Shown here: positions 30,328 through 30,507 of the stretch, piece after piece
How the letters are laid out: each line of letters begins with the position of its first letter
Position numbering within the stretch: position 1 is the first letter of the stretch
NCBI RefSeq assembly: GCF_030605225.1
Contig: NZ_JAUWAV010000010.1
Location: 1 to 64,000 of the forward strand
Source: Geoalkalibacter sp.
Lineage (GTDB): Bacteria > Desulfobacterota > Desulfuromonadia > Desulfuromonadales > Geoalkalibacteraceae
Direction of reading: 5' to 3'
Length of the DNA stretch: 64,000 nt
Translations under genes and position numbers: made by a program
The notes under the pieces: model-generated
Told to the model about the DNA's origin: nothing
The model's database searches: none
Seen by the model: the letters and a program-made list of their open reading frames with translations, nothing else

Positions 30328-30507
30328 AAAAATAAAAGGCCCCACCCGGACCGATCCGGATGAGGCCTCCTTGCCTGCTGCGGCTCCGCCGTGGCGCCGC
30401 AATCGATATTTTTATTCTTGCCCAACCATCAAAAAGCCCGCGAGAGATGCTCTTCTCTCCACGGGCTTCGTTGCCTCAATCCGTCGGCGGCGACACATCC
30501 TCGTGCC
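30328..30507 (-). promoter_or_regulatory. ANTAR-type antiterminator leader of nifH with two terminators
   Basis: On the minus strand P1 (30492-30507) is GGCAC-GAGGAT-GTGTC, with G4 but G instead of A at loop position 1. P2 (30464-30475) is GGC-AACGAA-GCC. It shares its 3' arm with terminator 1 (30431-30466, GCCCG-t-GGAGAGA stem, five T). A hairpin TGCGGC/GCCGCA follows. Then a second P2-like element (30363-30376), AGGC-AAGGAG-GCCT, overlaps terminator 2 (30328-30367, 13-bp stem, then TTTTATTTTT). nifH starts about 100 bases later. Confidence 0.75.

Follow-up and report, generated by a model that had tools for sequence, protein, structure and literature searches.

The leader of nifH in the window, by which we mean the whole analysed stretch of 64,000 nucleotides of Geoalkalibacter sp., holds two successive modules in each of which a short hairpin shares an arm with an intrinsic terminator, and double-module nifH leaders of this kind occur among related genomes well beyond chance. 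The leader probably acts as an ANTAR antitermination switch with two units in tandem. Its second stage contains a pentaloop hairpin and is almost restricted to nifH.

The gene itself (29346-30224, minus strand, ATG at 30224; NCBIfam TIGR01287, 471.7 bits) is followed downstream by nifD and nifK. A sequence-only reading of this DNA had listed for the leader, in order, P1, P2 with terminator 1, an extra hairpin and a second P2 with terminator 2, and every one of these elements is found at its position and in that order on the minus strand, to which all leader coordinates below refer. The sigma-54-type promoter TGGCACGGCCCCTGC (TGGCAC-N5-CTGC, 30529-30543, assigned from sequence) lies about 20 nt upstream of P1 (30492-30507), a recruitment-type hairpin GGCAC-GAGGAT-GTGTC with the hexaloop GAGGAT, nested in a longer stem (30516-30482). 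P2 (GGC-AACGAA-GCC, 30464-30475) has its 3' arm in common with intrinsic terminator 1 (30434-30468), the overlap falling within 30468-30464. The extra hairpin, P1b (30379-30401), is made of a stem, a 1x1 mismatch, two pairs and the pentaloop ACGGC, and gives the appearance of an 11-nt loop. It is followed by P2b (AGGC-AAGGAG-GCCT, 30363-30376), whose 3' arm doubles, within 30367-30363, as an arm of intrinsic terminator 2 (30338-30367; 13 pairs, loop TCGG, then a U-rich tract). Predicted energies are -2.8 and -4.3 kcal/mol for P2 and P2b, versus -21.3 and -24.5 kcal/mol for terminators 1 and 2; because the latter are far lower, the terminators should be favoured unless P2 and P2b are held.

Set beside known ANTAR targets, the first module has two hairpins of at least three pairs each; the P2 hexaloop AACGAA carries A at position 1 and G at position 4 (A1 and G4), and the P1 hexaloop GAGGAT carries G1 and G4. 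The linker between them, 16 nt, is outside the 5 to 12 nt of EutV and inside the range of 2 to 25 nt given in the text of PMC8164766. In the second module, the P2b loop AAGGAG is again a hexaloop with A1 and G4; the P1-type hairpin is not, P1b having a pentaloop. No known RNA family was found for the leader in Rfam: in the window only two tRNAs, and nothing in the leader, exceeded the gathering score, a leader search admitting E values as high as 5 gave sub-threshold matches to unrelated families only, and six related loci gave one sub-threshold match and none above threshold.

NifH was found in 74 of the 136 genomes of the window's order, and all 74 leaders were analysed. A strict detector (a hexaloop ANNGNN hairpin whose 3' arm is common to an intrinsic terminator) returned two modules in 38 leaders, one in 34 and none in 2, and a relaxed detector (weaker terminators allowed, R at loop position 1) two or more in 57 and one in 17. 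With spacing limits applied and 3 doubtful leaders removed by hand, the relaxed count becomes two modules in 54 of 74 leaders, representing 16 of 18 families and 27 of 37 genera, the second module being missing in 20. The second element and its terminator are thus conserved in relatives at either stringency, and the double-terminator design proposed from the window's sequence stands. Geobacter-type leaders have one module in 17 of 21 cases with either detector (two modules in 0 of 21 strict, 1 of 21 relaxed), Anaeromyxobacter-type and myxococcal nifH leaders have a module in 0 of 6, and those of other bacterial classes have any module in 0 of 44 by the strict detector and one module in 3 of 44 by the relaxed one. 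Upstream of the first module, 64 of 74 relatives have a sigma-54-like match to TGGC[AT]-N6-8-TGC, which was found in 8 of 1480 stretches after shuffling. When the window leader was dinucleotide-shuffled and scanned with the strict detector, two modules never appeared (0 of 1000) and one appeared in 8 of 1000; the corresponding figures for the 74 related leaders, shuffled 20 times each, are 0 and 3 of 1480.

Covariation was assessed in the same leaders. For the P1-P2 alignment, the covariation score is 0.411 versus 0.138 in shuffled alignments, a value reached by 0 of 500 shuffles, and three pairs of the P1 stem show changes on both sides, in 10, 20 and 11 cells. Terminator stems outside the shared arm also show two-sided changes at many positions. 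The P2 stem GGC/GCC is almost invariant in relatives and gives no covariation support, since its pairs barely vary. With this exception, the comparison of related nifH leaders called for by the earlier reading shows what it had foreseen, namely stems that covary and A1/G4 loops that are kept. The loops were also recovered when their letters were left free: among 133 hexaloop hairpins of at least three pairs competing with a terminator, 115 have A1 and 118 have G4, and six is the most frequent loop size (59 cases, followed by size 8 with 32) among hairpins of at least four pairs. The earlier argument for selection on the loops holds insofar as loops persist while stems change; selection does not act on loops alone, however, because the P2 stem GGC/GCC is nearly fixed as well.

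The G at loop position 1 of P1 had been viewed as a deviation that may weaken binding. Of the 39 hexaloops picked ahead of a module, 18 begin with G, 18 with A and 3 with C, and 34 have G at position 4, the automatic best-stem picking mixing P1, P1b and some spurious hairpins. G being as frequent as A in relatives, we see in it no sign of a weakened site. In the EutV-RNA structure, G4 alone is read base-specifically (PMC8934654), and mutations of A1 lowered induction by EutV (PMC3369931).

The '11-base loop' of the hairpin preceding P2b, taken at face value, does not exist as an open loop, for its bases form, beyond a 1x1 mismatch, two covarying pairs that close a pentaloop A-N-G-N-N. Most relatives have the same arrangement before P2b (two inner pairs and a pentaloop, with or without the mismatch). 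When pentaloops were picked by pairing alone, with letters free, A1 was found in 48 and G3 in 44 of 55 leaders. The P1b-P2b alignment, 38 distinct rows pre-filtered for A1 and G3, is paired in 98.3% of cells; both sides change in 7 of its 11 pairs and in 6 of the 7 pairs of P1b, one inner pair being C-G in 29 rows and A-U in 9, the other C-G in 38 of 38. Its covariation score is 0.369 versus 0.173 shuffled, and 0 of 500 shuffles reach it. In these rows the P2b loop has an invariant G4 and A1 in at least 90%, and the gap between P1b and P2b is 0 to 3 nt.

A covariance model of P1b-P2b (R1), which matches the window at 30402-30362, has 54 matches in 53 of the 136 genomes of the order. Fifty of these lie 53 to 324 nt upstream of a NifH match and two more upstream of a nifH cut by a contig end; one is at a contig end with the element E3 (see below) downstream (G004), and one is upstream of other open frames (G119). 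In a draw of 395 genomes from the phylum, which also contained the window's genome and some relatives, R1 gave two weak matches outside the order (E about 0.002), with no NifH in the 3-kb loci. Because almost all R1 matches precede nifH, the P1b-P2b module is nearly nifH-only. One nifH leader (genome G001) contains it twice in tandem, as two R1 matches. A possible interaction in which the P1b loop (GGCGG) would pair with CCGCC in E3 was considered and set aside by eye, E3 being unchanged where the P1b loop differs.

The nifH leader had been described as repeating the design of the nifB leader. The nifB candidate is a radical-SAM gene (23725-24690) so named from the sequence-only reading, its radical-SAM domain and its position. 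Its leader, on the minus strand, has P1 (GACAC-AAGGCT-GTGTC, 24728-24743), P2 (GGC-AACGAA-GCC, 24705-24716) and terminator 1 (24677-24707), then a second hexaloop hairpin (AGGC-AAGGGC-GCTT, 24647-24660), with no P1b before it, and terminator 2 (24622-24658). A second hexaloop-terminator unit, of the AGC-AAGGGC-GCT type, was detected in the window and in 11 of 30 related nifB leaders, which come from loci picked near the nif cluster and have a radical-SAM gene downstream in 30 of 30. No P1b was seen by eye in the second units of the 30 related leaders and the window, and R1 has no match upstream of nifB. The first module is repeated, then, but the second is at most a simpler form of that of nifH; since P1b was not found upstream of nifB, the second stage is not fully common to the two genes. 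A covariance model of P1-P2 (R2) has two clear matches in the window's genome, the leaders of nifB and nifH (E 2.9e-7 and 2.2e-6; the next match has E 1.04), and across the order it matches 39 of the 60 near-complete genomes. Further leaders of the P1-P2 antitermination type lie upstream of other genes in relatives (L258-L267), one of them (L264) upstream of a P-II-like product, as judged from the reading frame.

The presumed reader of the nifH leader is a response regulator with receiver and ANTAR output domains (47769-48332, minus strand; ANTAR match 47784-47939, 74 bits). It is the only ANTAR match in the window's genome, 17 kb from the nifH leader, which agrees with the confinement of R2 matches to the nifB and nifH leaders. 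The nearest solved structures are the putative antiterminator 1s8n and EutV (6wsh/6ww6). EutV holds G4 by Arg142, Lys149 and Glu160 (PMC8934654); by our reading of the alignment, with a numbering offset of two, the window protein has R, K and E at these places and also keeps EutV Lys143, Lys147, Met172 and Arg175, and it has Q, D and S at the RNA contacts Arg168, Asn173 and Arg177. Across the order, an ANTAR match is found in 71 of 74 NifH-positive versus 35 of 62 NifH-negative genomes, and 96 of the 106 genomes with any match have a single one; G075 has both RNA modules and no ANTAR match. The genes draT and draG adjoin the regulator gene, and this grouping (46069-48332) places post-translational and antitermination control of nitrogenase side by side. 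Between nifH and this group lies a Complex-I/Mrp-like cluster (34093-45495, minus strand) with several NuoL/M/N-type antiporter subunits.

How might such a leader work? In the EutV model, a dimer is recruited by P1, moves to P2 and keeps the terminator from forming, the minimal site being a single hexaloop (PMC8934654). For nifH we infer a related course of events, from promoter use, binding and antitermination to the action of one protein on both modules and the benefit of having two. Nitrogen limitation would start transcription from the sigma-54 promoter. Without active regulator, the nascent RNA would fold terminator 1, then terminator 2 for polymerases that leak through, terminator folding being the default in this model, since the short P2-type hairpin that competes with each terminator is much less stable. 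A phosphorylated dimeric ANTAR regulator would be recruited by P1, stabilise P2 and block terminator 1, then act again at P1b and P2b to block terminator 2. Two serial stops would multiply repression, so that nifH might be less leaky and switched on more sharply than behind one stop.

Several features count against this tandem model: the pentaloop of P1b, the gap of 0 to 3 nt between P1b and P2b, and the window's P1-P2 linker, longer than in EutV, whose activity is lost when the linker is shortened to 3 nt (PMC3369931). The 20 relatives with no second module, the near-invariant P2 stem, the Q, D and S at three EutV contact positions and the ANTAR-free genome G075 weigh on the same side. In a rival reading, the ANTAR protein controls the first module only, P1b-P2b and terminator 2 being read by another factor or signal, such that the leader would form an AND gate. 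P1b breaks both the hexaloop rule and the EutV linker rule, and P1b-P2b is tied to nifH, whereas P1-P2 also precedes nifB and other genes. However, the P2b hexaloop obeys the ANTAR rule, its G4 being invariant in the aligned rows and its A1 nearly so, and most of these genomes have one ANTAR match; we regard a separate reader as unlikely. Returning to the tandem ANTAR switch, a more detailed version of it can be proposed tentatively, as a possibility that we do not hold firmly: P1b may be a second class of recognition hairpin (A-N-G-N-N, nearly flush with P2b, in nifH leaders only), and through it the same ANTAR protein may pass from the first module to the second as the RNA is being made, or a second factor may join the protein, which would make nifH control two-stage and sharply cooperative and leave that of nifB simpler.

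Terminator 2 could also be a constitutive fail-safe terminator, or a processing or stability hairpin, with an incidental P2b loop. Its hairpin is strong and G+C-rich and back-up terminators are common, which we count for this explanation; yet constitutive termination between the promoter and the gene would shut nifH off, the P2b/terminator 2 overlap and the P2b loop letters are kept across families, and P1b covaries, all of which make it very improbable. Chance hairpins in a G+C-rich leader, although the motifs are short and one module does arise in occasional shuffles, are already refuted by conservation in relatives, to which the lack of double modules in shuffled leaders and the covariation add.

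A third conserved hairpin, E3 (30275-30309), stands between terminator 2 and nifH and has a variable outer stem around the core ATC-AATGGC-GAT GCCGCC (ATCAANNGNNGATGCCGC). The core (ATCAA..G..GATGCCGC) occurs in 47 of 74 related leaders and 0 of 71 others, mostly 60 to 100 nt upstream of nifH (leaders L002-L155) in much of the order, and it has no Rfam match. Outer-stem pairing scores 15.4 within species versus 9.7 with swapped flanks (highest of 40 swaps, 11.1), which is better evidence than covariation in a fixed register, where the stem is weakly supported: 69.1% of cells are paired, and a slide of +1 scores 0.269, above the 0.234 in register. E3 is a separate element, because it is also present in one-module leaders. 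A leader peptide at its conserved ATGCCGCC was rejected, the frames to nifH being distributed 19/18/13 and the stops scattered. The four inspected matches of the E3 model (R3) outside nifH leaders (L270-L273) are probably chance, since they are located inside long open frames. In one clade with a single module (L144, L146, L149 and L154), another conserved stretch, GCGGGACGGTC...CCCGCCCCGC, about 110 to 40 nt upstream of nifH and apparently structured, takes the place of terminator 2 and E3; the L144 leader has no Rfam match.

ANTAR control of nif genes has precedents in Pelobacter and Geobacter. The two-component system GnfK/GnfR of Geobacter sulfurreducens has reportedly been proposed to regulate some of the nif genes through antitermination (work of Ueki and Lovley in 2010), but Geobacter-type nifH leaders differ from the window's in mostly carrying one module. 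Two serial stops or attenuators in one leader are also seen in Salmonella mgtCBR and the B. thuringiensis Bc1 riboswitch; these respond to other sensors, and we know of no ANTAR-type hairpins in them. The GnfK/GnfR gene names appear in the text of PMC7962754. In Pelobacter carbinolicus, a related bacterium, ANTAR RNAs were predicted in three nitrogenase transcriptional units (Ramesh et al. 2012, PMC3369931), although the passages on this regulon do not mention modules in tandem, a hairpin with a pentaloop or a second module peculiar to nifH. The same paper gives 13 ANTAR elements in six units for Desulfotomaculum acetoxidans, so that several elements per unit are already published. The closest analogue, the E. 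faecalis eut system (EutV/EutW), likewise has P1 and P2 hexaloops with A1/G4 and a P2 arm common to an intrinsic terminator (PMC3369931, PMC8934654), but its four terminators precede different genes (PMC3369936), whereas nifH has two modules in one leader, the second with next to no linker and, in P1b, a pentaloop. The literature on ANTAR RNAs also includes PMC8164766 and PMC3369936, and the word nif is absent from the main text of PMC2965389. At the level of titles and abstracts, we found no earlier account of tandem modules ahead of nifH or of an ANTAR hairpin with a pentaloop. The new elements are the conserved tandem specific to nifH, including the pentaloop hairpin, and the third conserved hairpin downstream.

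The P1b pentaloop puts to the test the current rule that the ANTAR domain reads a G at hexaloop position 4, and searches that require two hexaloops would overlook sites of its type. One-stage and two-stage leaders, natural, widely conserved and seemingly served by one regulator, allow a direct test of whether antitermination in series makes a response sharper. Because nitrogenase is costly, control of nifH leakage is relevant to the physiology of diazotrophs.
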